NCBI RefSeq assembly: GCF_000188155.2
Contig: NZ_KE124774.1
Location: forward strand, 3,168,356-3,232,355
Reading direction: 5' to 3'
Length of the DNA stretch: 64,000 nt
Origin: Methylocystis sp. ATCC 49242
GTDB taxonomy: Bacteria > Pseudomonadota > Alphaproteobacteria > Rhizobiales > Beijerinckiaceae
This document shows positions 33,583 to 43,329 of the stretch, piece after piece; within the stretch, counting starts at the first letter, position 1, and every line of letters starts with the position of its first letter. A program made the translations under genes and the position numbers. The notes beneath the pieces were generated by a model. The model saw only the letters and a program-made list of their open reading frames with translations, made no database searches and had not been told where the DNA came from.

Positions 33583-33612
33583 AATGTTCGCTGCGGCTTG
33601 ATTTAATGCAAG

Positions 33613-33685
33613 CAGGCGATGGGGTTCGCCTTGTAACCGCCCTCGGGGCTGATGACTCCTGCATATGTCTGCACGGCGGGAGTCT
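33613..33685 (+). ncRNA. Fluoride riboswitch (crcB motif RNA) leading the cation:proton antiporter
   Basis: Matches the fluoride aptamer layout. P1 is GGCGA/TCGCC (33615-33619 with 33626-33630) closing the loop TGGGGT. An AACC junction leads to the second stem GCCC/GGGC (33639-33642 with 33646-33649), then the invariant CTGATG (33649-33654). ACTCC (33655-33659) pairs with loop GGGGT to make the pseudoknot. Downstream, GACTCC (33654-33659) can instead pair with GGAGTC (33679-33684), forming an expression-platform hairpin exclusive with the pseudoknot. The antiporter ATG is 110 bp further on. A second copy at 39424-39495 shows compensatory changes. Confidence 0.93.
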
Positions 33686-33771
33686 GCATGAAAACGATAA
33701 ACTTTGCCCTTTTGAAATCGACGCTCGCGCCACGCTCTTCTGTCGGACGGGTGAGTAGGACAGAGCTGGCC

Positions 33772-33788
33772 GCCCTCTCGCGGAGGGC
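33772..33788 (+). promoter_or_regulatory. Hairpin hiding the antiporter ribosome-binding site
   Basis: GCCCTC (33772-33777) pairs with GAGGGC (33783-33788) around a 5-nt loop. The 3' arm contains the GGAGG ribosome-binding site of the antiporter (ATG at 33795). This suggests control at translation initiation, possibly linked to the upstream fluoride riboswitch. Confidence 0.55.
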
Positions 33789-33794
33789 TGCGCA

Positions 33795-35021
33795 ATGACC
33801 CCGATCTGGGCGCAGGCCGCTCTGGTTTTCGGGCTCGCATTGATCGCGAGCCTCTTCGCGCATCGCTTCCGTCTCTCGACCGCGCTCGTTGAAATCATCA
33901 TCGGCCTTCTCGCGCGGACCGTGCTGGGGCTGACGCTGGGCGCGGAGGTCTTCGCCGTCAACGAGCCATGGGTGAAGACGCTCGCCGGCATTGGCGCGAT
34001 CTTCCTCACCTTCCTCGCCGGTGCCGAACTCGATCCCGACGTCTTCAAGATGAAATGGAAGGAGGCCGCGGCCATCGGCGGCGCGAGCTTCCTCGTTCCC
34101 TCGGTCGCGTGCTGGGCCGCCGCGCATTATCTTCTCGGCTGGGAGTCGTCGCCCGCGATCCTCGCCGGCATTGCGCTCGCCGCCACTTCGGTCGCCGTCG
34201 TCTACACGGTGATGATGGAATATGGCTTCAACCGCACCGATTACGGCAAGACGATCCTCGCCGCCTGTTTCATCACCGATCTCGGCACGGTGGTGACGCT
34301 CGGCCTCGTCTTCGCGCCTTTCACATGGAAGACGCTCCTCTTCGTCGCCGCGCTCGGCGCCGCCTTTGTCGGCCTTCCGAAGATCACGCCCGTCGCGTTC
34401 GAAAAATTCGGCGGGCGCCCGTCGGAGTTCGAGGCGAAATTCCTGCTGTTCGCGCTCATGTTGCTCGGCGCGCTCGCGACATGGGCGGGGAGCGAGGCCG
34501 TGCTGCCGGCCTATCTCGTCGGCATGGCGCTCGCGGGCGGCGTCGGGCGCGACAGCGCGCTGGTTCGCAGACTGCGCACCATCACCATCGGCCTGCTGAC
34601 GCCCTTCTATTTCATCCGCGCCGGCTATTTCGTCTCGCTGCCCGCGGTCGTCATGGCGCCTGTCGGCGTCATCGTCTTTCTGCTGGTGGAGATGGCGAGC
34701 AAGGTCGTCAGCGTCTATCCCGTCGCGCGCGCTTTCATGTCGCCGCACAAGGATGCGATGTATACGACGCTGCTGATGGCGTCGGGCCTGACCTTCGGCA
34801 CGATCTCCGCGCTCTTCGGTCTTTCCAACAAGATCATCGACGAATCGCAATATTCGACGCTCGTCGCCGCGATCATCGCGACGGCCGTCGTCCCGACGCT
34901 GATCGCCAACAGATTCTATCTGCCGCGCCATCACCTGCCCAAGGATGAAATCGAGCAGGCGCTCGCCGCGCATGACGCAGAGGCGCAGGAGGCCATCGAC
35001 GCGTCCGAAGTGCGTTCGTAG
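33795..35021 (+). CDS. Kef-type (CPA2) cation:proton antiporter under a fluoride riboswitch
   Basis: A 408-residue inner-membrane transporter with about 11-13 transmembrane helices and the Na_H_Exchanger fold. It has TALVEIIIGLLARTVLG near the start, FLAGAELDPDVF (the conserved acidic region), GIALAATSVAVVYTVM, and ITDLGTVVTLG with the ion-binding Asp. It lacks the C-terminal RCK/TrkA domains of true Kef channels and ends in a short acidic tail. CPA-type antiporters are a known, less common gene class behind fluoride riboswitches, so it likely counters fluoride-linked acid or ion stress. Its stop is 7 bp from the convergent HlyD stop. Confidence 0.9.
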   Translation: MTPIWAQAALVFGLALIASLFAHRFRLSTALVEIIIGLLARTVLGLTLGAEVFAVNEPWVKTLAGIGAIFLTFLAGAELDPDVFKMKWKEAAAIGGASFLVPSVACWAAAHYLLGWESSPAILAGIALAATSVAVVYTVMMEYGFNRTDYGKTILAACFITDLGTVVTLGLVFAPFTWKTLLFVAALGAAFVGLPKITPVAFEKFGGRPSEFEAKFLLFALMLLGALATWAGSEAVLPAYLVGMALAGGVGRDSALVRRLRTITIGLLTPFYFIRAGYFVSLPAVVMAPVGVIVFLLVEMASKVVSVYPVARAFMSPHKDAMYTTLLMASGLTFGTISALFGLSNKIIDESQYSTLVAAIIATAVVPTLIANRFYLPRHHLPKDEIEQALAAHDAEAQEAIDASEVRS

Positions 35022-35028
35022 ATTTACG

Positions 35029-36222
35029 TCAATTGCCGGCGGCGCATTCGGATGTTTCGATCGCGACGGGAAGATTTTCCTTCACGATCGACGCCGCCGT
35101 CGCTTTGCCCTGCGCCAGATCGTTGCTGTAGACGTCGGTGGCGTATTCGGGCGAGGCGGTTTTCGTTTTCGAGGCGTTGGGCTGCGTCTCGATGTTCGTC
35201 ACGTCGATCGTGATGTTGGTCGAAAGGCCCGGCCGCAGCGGATGTTTTTCAATTTCATCCGGGCGCAGCGCGATGCGCACGGGCACGCGCTGCACGATGC
35301 GGATGAAATTGCCCGTGGCGTTGTCGGGCGGCAGGAGCGCGAAGACGCTGCCGGAGCCCGGCACGATGCCGTCCACCGTCCCATGGAAGCGCGGGCTGTC
35401 GCCATAGAGATCGACCCTGATGTTCACCGGCTGCCCCGGCCGCACCCGCTCGAGACGGTTCTCCCAGAGATTGGCCTCGATCCACAGATGATCGAGCGGC
35501 ACGATGGTCATCAGCTGGTCGCCGGGCTTCACGCGCTGGCCGACCTGCGCCTTGCGCTTGGCGATGAAGCCCGAGGCCGGCGCCCGCACCTGCTGGCGCA
35601 CATATTCGATATGCGCGTCGAGATATTTCGCGCGGGCCGCTTCGACATCCGGGTGGGTCGCGGGCGTGACGCCGTTCACGCGCGCTTCGATTGCGTGAAG
35701 CTCCGCGCGCGACTCGCGCAGATCGGCTTCGAGCGCGGCGAGCTGGTCGCGCGTGTTCTGCACCTGCTGCTGGGAGACGGAGCCGGTCGTCGCCGCCTGC
35801 TGGTAGCGCGCAAGGTCATGGCGGGCGCGGTCGCGCAGCGCGGCGCGCGAGGCGATCTTCTCGCAGACCTGCCGCCGCGTGGCGAAGAGCGCGCCCACAT
35901 TGCGCGTCGTGCGCGCGAGATCGCCCGCGGCCTGAAGCAGCGAGGCTTCCGCGCGCTGCCTGTCGAGCAGCATGAGAACGTCGCCTTTCTTCACGCTCTG
36001 CGTTTCCTCGACCCGCACGTCGGAGACGATGCCGGTGGCGTCGGCATAGACCGGAATGAGATTGCCGGTCACGAAGGCGTTGTCGGTGGATACGAAAAAA
36101 CGATCCTTCACGAGCCATTTCCCGCCGAAGAAGAGTCCGGCGAGAGCAACGACGACTCCGACGCCCGCAAGCAGCAAGTTGCGGCGCGCGCGAATGGATT
36201 TACGGGCGAAGGGCGTTTGCAT
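35029..36222 (-). CDS. HlyD-family periplasmic adaptor (EmrA-like)
   Basis: Membrane-fusion protein linking the inner-membrane MFS pump to the outer-membrane channel. The 397 residues have one N-terminal transmembrane helix (about 16-36) and DAFVTGNLIPVYADATGIV, the biotinyl-lipoyl half motif. A long alpha-hairpin of coiled coil (about 90-200) is followed by VRAPASGFIAKRKAQVGQRV, the second lipoyl half, and a beta-barrel domain. Its ATG overlaps the stop of the outer-membrane factor gene (TGATG). It is the last gene of the riboswitch-led efflux operon. Confidence 0.92.
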   Translation of the reverse strand: MQTPFARKSIRARRNLLLAGVGVVVALAGLFFGGKWLVKDRFFVSTDNAFVTGNLIPVYADATGIVSDVRVEETQSVKKGDVLMLLDRQRAEASLLQAAGDLARTTRNVGALFATRRQVCEKIASRAALRDRARHDLARYQQAATTGSVSQQQVQNTRDQLAALEADLRESRAELHAIEARVNGVTPATHPDVEAARAKYLDAHIEYVRQQVRAPASGFIAKRKAQVGQRVKPGDQLMTIVPLDHLWIEANLWENRLERVRPGQPVNIRVDLYGDSPRFHGTVDGIVPGSGSVFALLPPDNATGNFIRIVQRVPVRIALRPDEIEKHPLRPGLSTNITIDVTNIETQPNASKTKTASPEYATDVYSNDLAQGKATAASIVKENLPVAIETSECAAGN

Positions 36223-37763
36223 CAGCCCCCGCCGAGGGATTGGATGACGTCGACGACAGGCGTGATATTGTCTTTCTCCGGGTTGATCGGCGCCTGCATG
36301 GGGCCTTCCGTATAGCCGCCGCCGAGCGCCTGAAAAAGATCCACCGTGGCGGCCTGATTGTCGCCCTCGAGCGCCGCCTGCGCATAGCTCTGGTCGAGCA
36401 CGCCGAGCGCCAGCAGCACGATCTCGCGGCGATCCCTGATTCCGTTGCGCCAGCGCGAACGCGCCATGTCGAGCTCCGTGCGCCGCGCGGCGACGAGCCG
36501 GTTCTGCGCGTCGAGCGCCGTGCGCGTCTGCTTCACATTGGCGAGCGCGTCGGCGACCTGCTGCGCCGCCGCGAGCAATGTTTCATTGTAGGAGTCGACC
36601 GCCTCGTCATATTCCGCGCGCCGTCCTTCGAGCCTCCCCGAGAGTCGCCCGCCCTGAAAGATCGGAAGGTGAAAACCCGGCGTGACGGCGTAGCTGAACG
36701 CCGAGGAGCGAAAGAGGAATTTCCCGAGTTCGCTGATCTGCGTGCTGTTACGCGAAGCCTCGAGCCCCGCGAAGCCGACGAGGTCGATCGAGGGGAGAAT
36801 TTCCGCCTTGGCGGCGTGAATGCGTTCGGCCGCGGCCTCGGCGCGATGCATGGCGGCGGAAAGATCGGGGCGATGGGCGAGCATCTCCACGGGAAGTTTC
36901 GCCGGCGGCGCGAGACGGACAGAGGCGACGAGATGTTTGCCGGCGAAGAGGTCGCGCGCGGCGTCGGGCCCTTCGCCCATCAACCGCGCGAGAAGATCCT
37001 GTTGAAAGGCGAGCAGGGCGCTCGCGCCGGCTTCGCGCTTGATCGCCGCCTCGACTTCGGCCGTGGCCTGCGCAATCGCGTCCTGCGTGTCGACGCCGGT
37101 GCGGAAGCGGTTCTGCGCAATGGCGACCAGCTCGCGGCGAAGCTTCGTCATCGCCTGCGCGATGGCGAGCTGGCGCGCCGCCGCGCGGCCGCGGAAGTAG
37201 GCGCGCGCGACGCCCGCCGACAACAGCAGACGCGTCTGCGCATATTCGGCCTCCTGCGCGGCGGTTTCGCCGAGCGCCGCGTCGAGCGCCGCGCGGTTCT
37301 TCCCCCAGAAGTCGAATTCGTAGCGGAAAGACAGCGGATTGATGAAAGCCATCGTCCGCTCGGTTCCCGCGAGCGCGCGATTATAGGAGGCGACGACGCC
37401 ATGCGTGGGGATGCGGGTCTGCCGCATGCCCATGTCGAAATCGAGCAGCGGCAAAAGGCGCGCGCCCTCGACCTCGGAGACGGCTTCGGTCTGCCGCAGC
37501 CGGTCGGCGGCTTTGTGCAGGCCGGGACTGTCGGCGAGAGCCTTGTCGACGACGCGGTCGAGTTCCGCGTTGCGGAAGCGGCGCCACCAGTTTTCTTCCG
37601 GCCAGCCGGCGCGAGACGAGGCGCCGGCCTGCGCGAGCGTGCGCTCCATGGCGGGGGGATCGGCGAATTCGGCGCGCTCGGGCGCCGTGGCCTGACAGGC
37701 GGCGAGAGGCGCAAGCGAAAGCGCGATCAGCGCGCGTCGACGAAGACCCCGCCCCCGAAGCAT
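36222..37763 (-). CDS. TolC/NodT-family outer-membrane efflux lipoprotein
   Basis: A 513-residue outer-membrane factor. A lipoprotein signal with lipobox LAAC (Cys about 23) is followed by two OEP repeats with long helices. Landmarks are the WWRRFRNAELDRVVDKAL entry block, the YEFDFWGKNRAALDAA segment characteristic of the NodT branch, and PIFQGGRLSGRLEGRRAEYDEAV in the second half. The ATG at 37763 shares a base with the MFS stop (TGATG). Middle gene of MFS-OMF-HlyD: the unit encodes a complete trans-envelope pump. Confidence 0.92.
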   Translation of the reverse strand: MLRGRGLRRRALIALSLAPLAACQATAPERAEFADPPAMERTLAQAGASSRAGWPEENWWRRFRNAELDRVVDKALADSPGLHKAADRLRQTEAVSEVEGARLLPLLDFDMGMRQTRIPTHGVVASYNRALAGTERTMAFINPLSFRYEFDFWGKNRAALDAALGETAAQEAEYAQTRLLLSAGVARAYFRGRAAARQLAIAQAMTKLRRELVAIAQNRFRTGVDTQDAIAQATAEVEAAIKREAGASALLAFQQDLLARLMGEGPDAARDLFAGKHLVASVRLAPPAKLPVEMLAHRPDLSAAMHRAEAAAERIHAAKAEILPSIDLVGFAGLEASRNSTQISELGKFLFRSSAFSYAVTPGFHLPIFQGGRLSGRLEGRRAEYDEAVDSYNETLLAAAQQVADALANVKQTRTALDAQNRLVAARRTELDMARSRWRNGIRDRREIVLLALGVLDQSYAQAALEGDNQAATVDLFQALGGGYTEGPMQAPINPEKDNITPVVDVIQSLGGG

Positions 37764-39349
37764 CACGGCTGCTCCATGAGTTCTTCGGCCTCGAGGCGAA
37801 TCAGATCGGGCTTCGGCTCGGGTTTCGCGGCCGGCCGCGCGAGCCATACGAAGCCGGCCAGACAGACGAATATGAATCCGCCCTGCAGGAAGGCGTCGCC
37901 GAGACCGAGAAGCTGCGACTGCTGTCTTATCATTCGTCCCATCAGGCTGCGCGTCACGGCTTCGCTGAGGCCCATCGCCTGTAATTTTTCGTTGAGCTGC
38001 CCGAGGAGATCGAGCGAGGCGAATCGCCGCCCGCCGAAGAAATCCGCGAGGTCGAGCTGATGGAAGGGCGAGCGCCTGAACTGCACGACATATTGCAGCG
38101 AAATGCCATAGGCGCCGGCCGCGGTGCGCAGCATCGCCATCTCCTCGGCGGCGCGAATCAGTCGCTGGCCGGAAAGCCCCTGCATGCCGATCGCCGCCGG
38201 CGGCGCAAAGAATGTCGCGAGCGAAAAGCCGAAGAAGACCATCGGCGCGGCAATCTGATCGAACGACGCCGGTTTGTCGAACATGCCGAGCCAGGTCAGC
38301 GTCACCCCGAAGCCGATGAAGTTGAGGCTGGCCAATAGCCGCAGATCCACATTGCGCACGAGTTCGTGCACGATCGCGACCAGCGGCACGGCGAGGAAGG
38401 CCATCAACAGATAGACGACGCCCGCGAGCGACGACGTGTAGCCGAGCAGCAATTGCAACTGCCCGACGAAGACGGACAGCGAGCCCTGCACCACCAGAAA
38501 GCCCATCACCGAACAGATCGTCGCGACCGCATAATTGCGGTGGGCAAAGAGCCGCAGATCCAGCACCGGATGGCGTTCGCCGAGCTCCCAGACGACGAAG
38601 GTCGGCAGGGCGATGAGAACCGCGACGAAGATCGTCATCAGCAAGGGCGAGGCGAGCCAGTCGAAGTCATTGCCCATGTTGAGAATCGTTTGCGCCCCCA
38701 CCAACACGATGGTCAGCAGCAGGAAGCCGACCCAATCGAAACGCGTGATGCGGCGCTCGTAGCTGCGCCCGTAAAGCAGCGCCCCCACGACGCCGGCGAT
38801 CGGCAGGCCGAGCGCGATGTTGGAAATGAACAGCGTGCGCCAGTCGAAATATTCGGCCCAGAAGCCGCCCATGAAGACGCCGAGCGTGAAGGGCGCCATG
38901 CTCAGCACGCCCCACAGCGCGACGCCGAAAGTGCGATAGCGTTCGGGATATTCGCCGAGAGCCAGCGCCTGCCCGAGCGGGAGAATGACTCCGCCGGCGA
39001 GGCCGAGCAAAAAGCGGAACGGCACGAATAGCCATATCGTCTCGCTCATTGCGCAGAGCAGGGAGAAAAAGGCGTAGGCGAGGAAGGCCGCCACATAGAC
39101 GCGATGGTTGCCGTAGCGCCCGGAGAGCCAGCGCGCGAAGGGCAGGCCCATCACGATTCCCATCATGTGGTCTGTCGTTCCCCAGGTGCCGAAGCTCGGC
39201 GTGACGCCGCCGAGATCGCCCGACACATAGGGCACCATGATGGTGTAACCGGGCACGTTGGAGAGCGCGATGACATTCGCCGCGCCGAGGGCGACATTGA
39301 GGAGCAGAAAGCGCCAGCCGGTCAGTTTTTCGTCCGCCGCCGCCGTCAT
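37763..39349 (-). CDS. MFS efflux pump, EmrB/DHA2 type, under a fluoride riboswitch
   Basis: A 528-residue inner-membrane drug:H+ antiporter with about 14 transmembrane helices. FRFLLGLAGGVILPLGQAL (motif C-like region), GRYGNHRVYVAAF (motif A-like loop) and WGVLSMAPFTLGVFMGGFWAEYFDWRTLFISNI (DHA2 block) fit the EmrB group. The ATG at 39349 is chosen by homology (MTAAADEKLTGWRFL); an upstream extension would run into the riboswitch. First gene of the coupled MFS-OMF-HlyD operon, with a 75-nt leader after the riboswitch platform. The exported substrate is unknown. Confidence 0.9.
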   Translation of the reverse strand: MTAAADEKLTGWRFLLLNVALGAANVIALSNVPGYTIMVPYVSGDLGGVTPSFGTWGTTDHMMGIVMGLPFARWLSGRYGNHRVYVAAFLAYAFFSLLCAMSETIWLFVPFRFLLGLAGGVILPLGQALALGEYPERYRTFGVALWGVLSMAPFTLGVFMGGFWAEYFDWRTLFISNIALGLPIAGVVGALLYGRSYERRITRFDWVGFLLLTIVLVGAQTILNMGNDFDWLASPLLMTIFVAVLIALPTFVVWELGERHPVLDLRLFAHRNYAVATICSVMGFLVVQGSLSVFVGQLQLLLGYTSSLAGVVYLLMAFLAVPLVAIVHELVRNVDLRLLASLNFIGFGVTLTWLGMFDKPASFDQIAAPMVFFGFSLATFFAPPAAIGMQGLSGQRLIRAAEEMAMLRTAAGAYGISLQYVVQFRRSPFHQLDLADFFGGRRFASLDLLGQLNEKLQAMGLSEAVTRSLMGRMIRQQSQLLGLGDAFLQGGFIFVCLAGFVWLARPAAKPEPKPDLIRLEAEELMEQP

Positions 39350-39423
39350 GCGCGCGTTCCGGGTCTCTGTGCGCAACGCGTTGTTCTGGTTTGCAGATTT
39401 TGCGCAGTTTGCGTTTTCACGCG

Positions 39424-39495
39424 GACTCCTACCGTGCGGATGCAAGTAGGAGTCATCAGCCCCGGGGGCGGTTACAAGGTGAACTCCATCACCTC
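39424..39495 (-). ncRNA. Fluoride riboswitch (crcB motif RNA) leading the MFS-OMF-HlyD efflux operon
   Basis: Minus-strand RNA. P1 is GGTGA (39493-39489) with TCACC (39482-39478), closing loop TGGAGT. An AACC junction and a GCCCCCGGGGC stem precede the invariant CTGATG. ACTCC (39453-39449) pairs perfectly with loop GGAGT, forming the pseudoknot. The platform stem GACTCCTAC (39454-39446) with GTAGGAGTC (39432-39424) is 9 bp, perfect, and competes with the pseudoknot. Compared with the copy at 33613, the C-G pair in P1 has become U-A. The MFS ATG lies 75 bp downstream. Confidence 0.93.
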
Positions 39496-39509
39496 TATAA
39501 TCTTAAACG

Positions 39510-39892: not shown

Positions 39893-39914
39893 TTGAGTAA
39901 ACTCAAGGTTGAGT
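39893..39914. promoter_or_regulatory. TTGAGT half-site cluster upstream of the double-barrel outer-membrane protein
   Basis: TTGAGT (39893-39898) and ACTCAA (39901-39906) form a dyad with a 2-bp centre, and a third direct TTGAGT follows at 39909-39914. It lies 72 bp before the ATG. Possible operator; no regulator identified. Confidence 0.35.
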
Positions 39915-39985
39915 ATGGCAATCATTTCGTGCGCCGCTTGCGCGGCGTCCCCCGCCCCGACGCTGCATTACCGGGATGTTTCGTG

Positions 39986-41734
39986 ATGTTCTTCGGAAAA
40001 TCCGTTACGCGCCGCTTCGCCGCCTGCGCCCTGACATTCGCCGGTTTCTGCGCCCCGGCTTCGGGAGCGGACCTGCCGTCGTTCAAAGGGGCACCGGTCG
40101 CGCCGCCGCCGGTCTTCACCTGGACGGGTCTGTACGTCGGCTTCAACTTCGGCCACACATGGACGGCGAGCGATCCGGTTTCGATCGGCTCCGTCAATCC
40201 GTTCGATCTGTCGGGGGCGGGATTCGGGCCAGCGTCGGCCCTCGGCGCCACGGGCGCGGTCGATGCGCGCCTCGGCGGTTATTTTTTCGGCGGGCAGGCG
40301 GGTTACAACTGGCAGTTCTCCGAAAAGCTGATCGCGGGTTTCGAGGCCGACATTCAGGGGGCCGGCGTGCGCGGCGGCGGCCATCTCGCCAGCATCCTGC
40401 CGGCGCCGGCCGGCTTCGCGGTCTCGGGAGTCAAGCTCAGTCGCGGTCTCGAATATTTCGGCACGGTGCGTGGACGCTTCGGCTACGCCGTCACGCCGAC
40501 CTTCATGGCCTATGTGACGGGCGGCCTGGCCTATGGCGGCGTCACCGCTGATTCGGCGATCCGGCAGAGCCTCACGCCGTCGCTCCTGCTCGCCGAGCCG
40601 GGGAAGCTCGATTATTTCGACAATCGCGTCGGCTGGACGGTCGGCGCGGGCGGCGAAGTGGCGCTCTCCCGAAATATCAGCGCGAAGCTCGAATATCTCT
40701 ATTACGATCTCGGCGGCGTCACGCTCTCGACCCCGTCCTATTTTCCCCTCACCTTCAGCGATGTCCAGACGAAGGCGCTGACCCTCGCCGACGCGTCGCG
40801 CTATACGACGCGATATAATGGCCACACCCTGCGCGCTGGCCTCAACTATCGCTTCGACTGGAGCATTCCTGAAACCCCCGGCTCGTCCGCGACGCCGCTC
40901 TTCGCGAGCCCGCAATTCGCCATGGCCGAGAAGCCGGCCCCGGCCGACTGGAGCCTGAGAGTCATTCCCTATCTCTGGGCGCTCAACACCAATGGCTCGT
41001 TGAAATTGCGCGATGAATCGCTCGCCGCCAATACGACGATCATCGACGCCATCGCCAAAAGCAGCTCTTTCCCGCTCCCCTTCATGGGACGCGTCGAATT
41101 GAGCAACGGACCCTGGTCGGCCTATGGCGATTTCGTCTGGACGCAAATGCGCTTCTCGGGTTCGACGCTGACCCTGCGCTCGCCTGTCGCGGACATCGCG
41201 CTCGCCCTGAATTCCGGCGGGCATTTGCGGCAGACATTCGCCGTCGGGGAAGCTGGCGTCGGATATGAACTCGCGCGTTTCAGCTTGATGAGCGCGCCGC
41301 AGTCCGTCACCTCTTTCGACGCTTACGCCGGCGCGCGTTATGTCTATCTGGGCCTCGATCTCACGCTCGACGCCCTCGGCGCCGTGAATTCGTCGGCGCT
41401 CGGGGCGCAGGCGCTCATCGCGCGCAATATCGAGAGCAAAGCGCGGATGGAATGGGTCGATCCCCTCGTCGGTCTGCGCATGCGCCACAGTTTCGCGCCG
41501 GGCGACGCTTTCGAGCTGCGGGGCGATGTCGGCGGTTTTGGCGCGGGAAGCAATTTCAGCTGGCAGGCCTATGGCGGCTACACCCATGATTTTGAATTCG
41601 AGGGGGTGAAGCTGGCCGGCCTTATCGGCTATCGCGCGCTGAGCCTCGATTATTCGAAATGGGTCAAGGGAAGGGAAAACGGGGTCAACGCCATTTTCCA
41701 CGGGCCTGTCGTCGGCGTCGGCGCGCGCTTTTGA
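39986..41734 (+). CDS. Large outer-membrane protein with two beta-barrel-like domains
   Basis: A 582-residue exported protein. The signal peptide runs to about residue 25 (ASGA). Residues ~30-285 form an Omp25/porin-like barrel: TWTGLYVGFNFGHTW, FGGQAGYNWQFSEKLIAGFEADIQG, KLEYLYYDLGGV and the closing HTLRAGLNYRFDW. A linker (about 290-325) leads to a second beta-rich domain of ~260 residues (WSLRVIPYLWAL, GPWSAYGDFVW, YAGARYVYLGLDL, YGGYTHDF), ending in GVGARF. Each half looks like a complete barrel with its own closing strand. The ATG at 39986 is chosen because it starts the signal peptide. Confidence 0.8.
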   Translation: MFFGKSVTRRFAACALTFAGFCAPASGADLPSFKGAPVAPPPVFTWTGLYVGFNFGHTWTASDPVSIGSVNPFDLSGAGFGPASALGATGAVDARLGGYFFGGQAGYNWQFSEKLIAGFEADIQGAGVRGGGHLASILPAPAGFAVSGVKLSRGLEYFGTVRGRFGYAVTPTFMAYVTGGLAYGGVTADSAIRQSLTPSLLLAEPGKLDYFDNRVGWTVGAGGEVALSRNISAKLEYLYYDLGGVTLSTPSYFPLTFSDVQTKALTLADASRYTTRYNGHTLRAGLNYRFDWSIPETPGSSATPLFASPQFAMAEKPAPADWSLRVIPYLWALNTNGSLKLRDESLAANTTIIDAIAKSSSFPLPFMGRVELSNGPWSAYGDFVWTQMRFSGSTLTLRSPVADIALALNSGGHLRQTFAVGEAGVGYELARFSLMSAPQSVTSFDAYAGARYVYLGLDLTLDALGAVNSSALGAQALIARNIESKARMEWVDPLVGLRMRHSFAPGDAFELRGDVGGFGAGSNFSWQAYGGYTHDFEFEGVKLAGLIGYRALSLDYSKWVKGRENGVNAIFHGPVVGVGARF

Positions 41735-42006
41735 TGGACGATCGACGCCCGGCGCCCTCGTCTCGGAGCGGTTTCGACGCGGCGCATTCATGACAGAAAC
41801 ACTCGGACAGGCAACTGGACGCCGCCGACCGGCGACTTAGGTTACGTCGGGGCGCGTGCGTCTTTCCTGTGGAAAGGACGCCGCTCCCGCGCAGTAGCAA
41901 GACTGAGCGCAACCTCTGGTTGCAAATGATTGCGCGGCGCTGTTATTTTGTTGCGGCGCAGCGGGACCTTTGTACGCGCCGGGATTTTTTCAAGGAGGAT
42001 GCGGAT

Positions 42007-43329
42007 ATGTCGAATTTCTCGCCAACGGATGTTATCGCGCCGAGGGGGGGCGAAACCGCGCCGCTGCGTGAAAAATGGGGCTGGATGGTCGCCTTCGGCG
42101 CCGTGCTGGCGCTCGCGGGCTTCATCGCCCTGGGCAGCGTCGTGACGGCGACTTTCGCCAGCGTCTTCGTTGTCGGAATCGCGATGATCGCCAGCGGCGT
42201 CGTGGAGATGATCTACGCGGTCGTCGTGCGCTCCTGGAAGAAATTCTTCCTTTGGTCGCTCATCGGACTTCTCTATGTGGTCGCCGGCGTCGGCGTCGTC
42301 GAGAACCCGCTGTTGGCCGCAAAGTTCCTGACGCTTTTGATCGGCTCGGGCCTGATCGCCTCCGGGCTGGTGCGCACCTTCCTCGCTTTTCAACTGCCGA
42401 AGGAGGCCCCCTGGGTTTTCGTCGCGCTGTCGGGCGTCGTCACGCTGTTGCTCGGGCTGCTGATCATCATGCAGTGGCCGGTCTCCAGCCTCTGGGTGCT
42501 CGGCGCGTTTCTGGGCGTGGATCTGATTTTCGCGGGATCGAGCTGGATTGGAATGGGACTTTCTCTCAAGCGCGGCGAACCGGCCGGCCGCTTGGGCGTC
42601 ATTGGAGATGAAACCGGGAGCATCGTTATGCAAAGTGGATTTGGTCGCAAGCTTTTCGCCGAGTTTCTCGGCACGTTTTGGCTCGTCTTCGGCGGTTGCG
42701 GCAGCGCGCTGATCTCCGCCGGCTTCCCGCAGCTCGGCATCGGCTTCACGGGCGTCTCTCTCGCATTCGGCCTGACCGTGCTGACCGGCGCCTACGCCTT
42801 CGGGCATGTGTCCGGCGGGCACTTCAATCCGGCGGTTTCGCTCGGTCTCGCCGCCGCGGGCCGCTTCTCCTGGAAGGAGCTCGGGCCATACTGGATCGTG
42901 CAGCTTCTCGGCGCGACCTTCGCCGCCTTCGTGCTACTGAAGATCATGCAGGGAAACATCGACTTCTCGCTCGCCAACGGCTTCGCTGCGAATGGTTATG
43001 ATGAACATTCGCCCGCCGGTTTCACGATGCAGTCGGCCCTCATCATCGAGACCGTGCTGACGGCCTTCTTCCTTCTCGTCATCCTCGGCGTGACCGAAGG
43101 ACGCGCTCCCGTCGGTTTCGCGCCCCTGGCGATCGGTCTGGCGCTGACGCTGATCCACCTCGTCGACATCCCGGTCACGAACGCTTCGGTCAACCCGGCG
43201 CGCTCCACGAGTCAGGCGCTGTTCGTCGGGGGCTGGGCCATGGAGCAGCTATGGCTGTTCTGGGTGGCTCCGCTGCTGGGCGGGCTGATCGGCGGCGTCG
43301 TCCATCGCTTCACGCTTGCGGAAAACTGA
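42007..43329 (+). CDS. HdeD-family membrane protein fused in frame to aquaporin Z
   Basis: A 440-residue protein. Residues ~20-190 are an HdeD/DUF308 six-helix domain ([49 protein letters not shown]). From Met208 a complete AqpZ follows: [21 protein letters not shown], the first NPA in [10 protein letters not shown] and the second in NASVNPARS, ending HRFTLAEN. AqpZ alone would be 233 residues, the usual size. No stop separates the two, but Met208 (42628) has a GGGAG site 8 bp upstream, so free AqpZ could also be made. The first ATG has an AAGGAGG site. Probably water/osmotic and acid-stress related. Confidence 0.85.

Follow-up and report, generated by a model that had tools for sequence, protein, structure and literature searches.

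The 64,000-nucleotide (nt) stretch of Methylocystis sp. ATCC 49242 analysed here (the window) contains a locus in which two fluoride riboswitches face inward around a cation/proton antiporter gene and a three-gene efflux pump operon. Both RNAs look like translational ON switches that work via a short leader open reading frame (ORF), to judge from their predicted pairing and from related leaders. We read the locus, with moderate confidence, as a fluoride-inducible envelope module of Methylocystis, in which a putative riboswitch-leader relay would turn on relief from acid anions and from ion imbalance. The regulatory part of this model is fairly well supported by sequence comparison, and the functional part, namely the pump cargo and the relief role, is weaker. 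The argument is carried by a reading-frame test, the riboswitch scores, and a survey of the genus. The features of the locus are as follows.

33606..33668, plus strand: left fluoride riboswitch aptamer (RF01734), full length, 57.4 bits, E 2.6e-13
33676..33684, plus strand: anti-aptamer GCGGGAGTC, with 9 of 9 pairs (one G-U) to the aptamer's GACTCCTGC; holds the Shine-Dalgarno GGAG of the leader ORF
33688..33798, plus strand: leader ORF of 36 codons with ATG start; its stop overlaps the antiporter start (ATGA)
33772..33788, plus strand: hairpin from fold prediction, possibly masking the GGAGG Shine-Dalgarno of the antiporter itself before leader translation
33795..35021, plus strand: CPA2-type (PF00999) cation/proton antiporter of 408 amino acids (aa), from Pfam and profile searches
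35029..36222, minus strand: EmrA/HlyD-like periplasmic adaptor, 397 aa (TIGR00998, 275.6 bits, below the 390.8 cut-off)
36222..37847, minus strand: NodT-type outer-membrane factor (OMF; TIGR01845, 286.9 bits, cut-off 210.05)
37763..39349, minus strand: EmrB-like MFS transporter, 528 aa, with Asn31 at the position of EmrB Asp29, from profile searches and alignments
39346..39420, minus strand: leader ORF of 24 codons with GTG start; its stop overlaps the MFS start (ATGA)
39424..39432, minus strand: anti-aptamer GTAGGAGTC, with 9 of 9 pairs to the aptamer's GACTCCTAC; holds the leader's Shine-Dalgarno
39440..39502, minus strand: right fluoride riboswitch aptamer (RF01734), full length, 57.9 bits, E 1.9e-13

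A preliminary description of this DNA had proposed two inward-facing crcB-motif RNAs. The Rfam covariance-model search, in which the gathering score of RF01734 is 34, confirmed that both RNAs are real, although the end points first given for them were about 7 bases off. The left aptamer scored 67.2 bits with a purpose-built model, R2, whose training set included this window. Eighteen columns were invariant in an alignment of 42 aptamer copies, both window copies included. The covariance-model search of the whole genome found no third fluoride riboswitch, the two window copies being the only ones detected.

None of 300 shuffles reached nine anti-aptamer pairs, for the left or for the right leader. 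The left anti-aptamer hairpin was present in the minimum-energy fold, and the 95-nt leader fold had a z of -1.88 on the left and -4.78 on the right. The two leaders differ in the base pair at position 8, which is A-T in one and G-C in the other. We defined a relay by a Shine-Dalgarno inside the switching helix together with a stop-start overlap with the gene, and both window leaders have both features. Pairing was also scored leader by leader, as the best downstream partner of the aptamer GACTCCTRN strand, in 26 leaders of MFS and cation/proton antiporter (CPA) genes. Eight or nine of the nine pairs formed in 16 of the 26 leaders, a level that their own shuffles reached in 0-13%, and in most of the 26 the anti-aptamer carried GGAG with a start codon downstream. 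Pairing at the variable positions was 44, compared with 39.5 expected under permutation of the partners (p 0.012; 21 distinct leaders, relatedness ignored). For this test the partner was placed from the constant positions only; choosing it with the tested positions gave p 0.006, a value biased in favour. By position, p was 0.008 at position 8, 0.14 at position 9, and 0.86 at position 10.

The leader ORF ended within 10 nt of the transporter start, or fused with the gene, in 22 of the 26 leaders. The stronger test was that of frame. The distance from leader start to gene start was 2 modulo 3 in 19 of 20 leaders, or in 13 of 14 distinct lengths (binomial 6e-6). This count omits the near copies L043, L149, L155, and L161, as well as L059, whose gene is not CPA by BLAST and which is included in the 22 of 26; the MFS leaders L034 and L137 are in-frame fusions outside the 20-leader set. 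Counting L049, which was left out, against the frame gave 13 of 15 lengths (3.1e-5), and counting the two fusions against it as well gave 13 of 17 (3.4e-4). Because the leader peptides had no common sequence by eye beyond close relatives, selection seems to act on the leader frame rather than on the peptide. A tested relay of this kind exists at ppe2 of M. tuberculosis, where a B12 riboswitch is described as working via a short ORF, uPPE2, whose stop overlaps the gene start at AUGA (PMC11260477). The B12 element is an OFF switch, whereas here a fluoride ON switch is predicted and is repeated at many transporter genes. Our search of CC-licensed PMC papers found no fluoride example of a riboswitch-leader ORF relay.

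We searched 39 Methylocystis genomes for fluoride riboswitches and read the downstream genes, which were labelled by BLAST to single reference proteins. Entries for nine genomes were added by hand, and the family riboswitch matches in G154, G145, G123, and G071 were left out. Thirty genomes with completeness of 90% or more and contamination of 5% or less made up a high-quality subset. A fluoride riboswitch was present in 37 of the 39 genomes, and pump genes (MFS or OMF/HlyD) were under a switch in 35 of the 39 and in 28 of the 30 high-quality ones. The commonest targets counted were OMF/HlyD (30 genomes) and MFS (22, five of them via a switch below the family cut-off), ahead of CrcB (at least 11, with one query; cluster c2 adds G199 and G214). 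An H+-ATPase with related adaptor and OMF was under a switch in 17 genomes, PPK2 polyphosphate kinase in 12, and CPA in 10. One ATPase copy was scanned; it matched TIGR01647, the plasma-membrane proton-efflux ATPase, at 930 bits (cut-off 615.5), with PPK2 downstream of it. Outside the genus, a pump was under a switch in one (G105) of the 43 switch-bearing family genomes whose loci were read. A Usp gene adjoins some of the CPA genes, and enolase lies downstream of a fluoride switch in relatives outside the genus (cluster c15). Enolase is a classical fluoride target.

The operons were of several types: switch-OMF-HlyD-ATPase-PPK2 (e.g. L038), switch-MFS-OMF-HlyD-CPA (L041, L043, L036), switch-CPA alone (L035), and switch-MFS next to a convergent CPA (L037, L148, L149). 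Of the 32 genomes having both MFS and CPA, 29 had them no more than 6 kb apart, a count that used all 39 CPA matches and 49 of the 63 MFS matches (those of at least 60% identity; 14 at 48-50% were omitted). Among the 30 CPA-MFS pairs, 17 were divergent, 7 convergent, and 6 on the same strand. An inward switch on both genes was found in two of the seven convergent pairs, this locus and that of G202 (L137); elsewhere in the genus these genes share an operon, diverge from each other, or lie at separate loci. The bracketed two-switch layout is rare and is not itself a conserved unit. The fluoride-controlled set of pump plus antiporter put forward in the preliminary description does recur across the genus.

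The gene identities within the locus agree with the earlier assignment of the left RNA to the antiporter and of the right RNA to MFS-OMF-HlyD, and gene calls and sequence bear out that the two units converge, with 7 bases between the stop codons of antiporter and HlyD (35021 and 35029). TGATG stop-start overlaps occur at both junctions of the pump operon, at 37765-37761 (OMF) and 36224-36220 (HlyD). The first of these overlaps, with the MFS stop, makes 37763 the probable start of OMF, in preference to an ATG further upstream (37847). MFS, HlyD-type adaptor, and OMF are encoded together, as in the gene set of EmrAB-TolC (8zal; PMC13139468), and the closest solved relative of the MFS protein is E. 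coli EmrB (8zal, 281 bits), with a profile match along nearly the whole protein. The differences lie in gene order, which is MFS-OMF-HlyD here and OMF-HlyD-MFS at ordinary EmrAB-like loci with all three genes, in the Asn at the D29 position, and in the scores, since the adaptor stays under the EmrA cut-off given above and the MFS protein misses the curated EmrB cut-offs (TIGR00711, 215.9 of 230.2; NF000391, 256.9 of 925).

In EmrB, D29 touches R109 and Q112, and resistance was reported to be abolished by D29N or R109A (PMC13139468). The aligned motif-D residues of the window MFS are Asn31, Arg112, and Leu115, and the EmrB residues are spaced in chain 8zal as this alignment requires. MFS sequences were sorted by identity to the window protein into a subfamily (at least 39%, n=69) and an ordinary EmrB-like group (below 32%, n=12); L276 is absent because its score was under the limit. 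Asn was found in 67 of the 69 subfamily sequences, the remaining two (L225, L264) being cut or fragmentary there, and Arg in 68 (one gap), whereas Asp and Arg were found in all 12 ordinary sequences; many of the 69 are near-identical, and the independent cases are far fewer. Of the 67 Asn sequences, 49 had Leu and 18 had Gln at position 115. An Arg without its Asp partner suggests an anionic cargo or another mode of coupling.

The antiporter had PF00999 as its sole Pfam match (121.1 bits, cut-off 26.2). Its profile aligns with KefC and NapA, and it shares with these antiporters the fold, the conserved Asp162, and Lys303, which aligns to the KefC and NapA lysines. Its ion site is T161-D162, whereas KefC has QD and NapA has DD. 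A single Asp plus Lys would go with electroneutral exchange. The former label "Kef-type" suits the fold, but an RCK domain is absent and the score falls below the CPA2 subfamily cut-off (TIGR00932, 97.5 of 238.3 bits; KefC, 41.6 of 752).

No crcB/fluc gene had been seen in the window, and this absence extends to the whole genome (4,726,034 bases, 6 contigs, completeness 100), in which there were no PF02537 matches; the same search was positive in 10 of 14 controls. The one CLC found in the genome (L003) matched ClcA-type chains at up to 231 bits and the fluoride CLC 6d0j at 28.8 bits, and it was rejected as a hidden fluoride exporter because it is ClcA-like, that is, of the chloride type. By these searches, no known fluoride exporter gene was found in this genome. 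A PF02537 match was likewise absent in 14 of the 30 high-quality Methylocystis genomes, all 14 of which have a fluoride switch. In G151 (98% complete, 200 contigs), CrcB, CLC, MFS, and CPA were unmatched at the limits used, which fragmentation may explain in part; the switch locus of this genome holds only switch-OMF-HlyD and a small, probably secreted protein.

The module is proposed to work as follows. Without fluoride, the aptamer 3' strand GACTCCTRC would pair with GYRGGAGTC, hiding the Shine-Dalgarno. Binding of fluoride and Mg would lock the aptamer and free the Shine-Dalgarno, and the 24- or 36-codon leader ORF would then be translated. At the ATGA overlap the ribosome would start again, on the antiporter or the MFS gene, and the TGATG overlaps would pass translation on to OMF and HlyD. 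Entry of HF would bring F- and H+ into the cell and block enolase and pyrophosphatase. The CPA2 antiporter would restore ion and pH balance, and the MFS-HlyD-OMF conduit would send an acid anion, most probably an organic metabolite accumulating in the presence of fluoride, directly out of the cell. Proton and energy stress is suggested by the genes under common control, namely H+-ATPase, PPK2, CPA2, and Usp. Acid-anion export is favoured because of this gene set and because the switch precedes enolase in relatives. The formate/nitrite channel gene next to the pump at two Nitrospira loci fits as well.

Several observations weigh against this proposal. Ten of the 26 leaders form seven of the nine pairs, which 20-65% of shuffles equal, and the covariation signal rests mainly on position 8. 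The antiporter Shine-Dalgarno hairpin is no more stable than its shuffles (z -0.10). In L049 the ORF stops after 2 codons, and the distance is 97 nt, or 1 modulo 3. Three of the 20 leaders (L035, L056, L159) do not properly reach the gene start; the ORFs of L035 and L159, both among the 19 in frame, end 38 and 14 nt before the gene. Ten loci have a CPA-MFS pair without a switch (L206, L211-L214, L219, L220, L222, L230, L253), and fluoride is therefore not the only trigger. A credible upstream switch was found at 15 of 79 MFS loci from named genomes, many Methylocystis-type loci having none that could be detected, and the pump subfamily occurs without a switch in Nitrospira, Methylomonas, and Methyloversatilis. 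CrcB and CPA as strict alternatives were rejected, since the CrcB-positive genomes G089 and G214 have CPA under a switch too, and control of CPA and MFS is hence no simple either/or substitute for CrcB. Asn31 is also no proof of different coupling, because EmrB D29N/D221N still did antiport in vesicles though D29N had lost resistance (PMC13139468).

We regard it as unlikely, though worth serious attention, that the locus encodes an ordinary EmrAB-like multidrug or uncoupler pump and a Kef-like antiporter, placed under the switch because HF is a weak-acid stress, with a substrate unrelated to fluoride. The closeness to EmrB and the occurrence of the subfamily elsewhere without a switch fit such a pump, as does the resistance to the uncoupler CCCP that EmrAB-TolC confers (PMC13139468); the Asp that EmrB needs for resistance is, however, Asn in all but the two fragmentary members of the subfamily. 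The pump stays associated with the switch across the genus, and this points to a need linked to fluoride.

The main rival to acid-anion export is direct export of fluoride, since our searches of this genome, with its two fluoride switches, turned up no known exporter. The antiporter or the pump would itself export fluoride where Fluc and CLC-F are lacking, as a CPA2 F-/H+-type exchanger or as an MFS conduit for F-. We consider this unlikely. F- leaks through porins, and a trans-envelope conduit would gain little given that leak; the ion site of CPA, TD plus Lys, lines up with those of the cation antiporters KefC and NapA. CPA and CrcB occur in one operon in G214 and, by cluster membership, in G090, so that CPA is no simple replacement for Fluc. 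The 14 high-quality genomes with a switch and no PF02537 match speak for direct export, although the CLC typing covers this genome only. Arg112 of the MFS, kept without its Asp partner, is a possible anion site, and two Nitrospira pump loci adjoin a small-anion channel gene. A bolder version, which we think improbable, is that the MFS-HlyD-OMF subfamily with the Asn/Arg motif D is a small weak-acid-anion exporter that became, with CPA2 and driven by the riboswitch leaders, the fluoride exporter of those Methylocystis genomes that have lost Fluc and CLC-F.

The leader ORFs may instead be incidental, with Rho-dependent termination or direct action on the transporter start as the mechanism and the ATGA overlaps arising by chance. 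Frame-keeping shuffles at fixed distance, the weaker of our two tests, end near the gene start or fuse with the gene in 11.4 of the 26 leaders on average, against the 22 observed. The two in-frame MFS fusions and the terminator-like or direct Shine-Dalgarno platforms in other members of the family are also compatible with incidental leaders. The frame test makes them a poor prospect, even with L049 and the fusions counted against it, and Rho control and leader translation are mutually compatible. That the RNAs are relics, or that their ligand is not fluoride, is barely credible: fluoride binding of these copies is predicted from sequence, but the matches are full-length and far above the cut-off, and the 18 invariant columns hold over 42 copies.

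Beyond the genus, the pump subfamily can be followed with and without the switch. The 15 switch-bearing MFS loci are 61-74% identical to the window MFS and belong to Methylocystis, Methylocystaceae, and less closely classified alphaproteobacteria. The order MFS-OMF-HlyD is also found, without a credible switch, in Methyloversatilis, Methylococcaceae, Nitrospira, and Methylomonas; the search of the Nitrospira, Methylomonas, and Methyloversatilis pump loci gave just two matches of E 0.7-0.9, both in L248. The order OMF-HlyD-MFS was found at nine ordinary EmrAB-like loci with all three genes (about 30% identity) and at the shortened L276. A formate/nitrite transporter gene (PF01226, 208-210 bits) lies directly upstream of the pump at the two Nitrospira loci tested (L235, L240), and related ORFs of similar size precede the pump in further Nitrospira loci (at least six of 290-318 aa, L235 included). 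At nine gamma- and betaproteobacterial loci, those of Methylomonas and Methyloversatilis among them (e.g. L226, L254), a related protein of about 295 aa is encoded upstream of the pump. It has a lipoprotein-like signal sequence by eye, and the four copies scanned had no Pfam match.

In a 2024 review, the exporters named for fluoride are Fluc and CLC-F, with accessory factors besides, Na+/H+ antiporters are given as the next most common riboswitch-associated class after the exporters, and Methylobacterium DM4 is described as having extensive riboswitch control (PMC11139923). This ranking contradicts the view in the preliminary description that antiporters are a minority target. The term "mfs" is absent from the main text of the review. 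No paper on a tripartite pump as a fluoride-riboswitch target was found among CC-licensed PMC papers, and an MFS entry in the gene lists of Baker et al. 2012 is possible. The locus shares the aptamer of the known crcB-motif (RF01734) regulon, of which antiporters are a known target (PMC11139923), and differs in that Methylocystis favours OMF/HlyD and MFS pump genes over CrcB. A genus thus puts a two-membrane pump under a fluoride switch more often than Fluc, and how such cells shed fluoride, or what fluoride does to them, becomes directly testable. The survey also brings out a putative relay from riboswitch to leader ORF that occurs repeatedly, and a pump subfamily whose natural motif-D residue is the Asn that abolished drug resistance when introduced into EmrB. 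The regulon is relevant to how Methylocystis, a methane oxidiser, tolerates fluoride and the breakdown of organofluorine compounds.

Other genes were seen near the locus or behind related switches. Just upstream of the right riboswitch, and divergent from it, lies a gene for a 613-aa outer-membrane beta-barrel protein (39893-41734), with a PF13505 match over residues 76-321 only. At 41869-43329 of the window, a DUF308 (HdeD-like) domain is fused to aquaporin Z; a relative is found just upstream of the MFS gene, and divergent from it, in L202 and L261. An unannotated 148-aa protein family (cluster c3; L047:6089-6532 and 20 further ORFs) lies behind fluoride riboswitches in Methylocystis and other genomes, often as a tandem pair. 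The one copy scanned had no Pfam or NCBIfam match, two hydrophobic segments were seen by eye, and 74 relatives were found. A copy with 41% identity lies on the contig of this genome that contains the window, beyond the window itself and away from both switches. One family genome, G013 (L075-L078), had 13 fluoride-riboswitch matches in two regions, whose targets cluster with genes for CLC, MutS, Usp, enolase, and cyclopropane fatty acid synthase. A gene of the last kind follows a fluoride riboswitch at L072:4118-5353 (scanned) and, by clustering, at L076:15471-16736, which perhaps alters membrane permeability to HF. A small, probably secreted protein (88-108 aa) is encoded after OMF-HlyD in four genomes (L033:2104-2370, L042:9383-9706, L142:2371-2697, L153:150-476); neither MFS nor ATPase was seen in these operons, and the one protein scanned, which had no family match, is among these small proteins.

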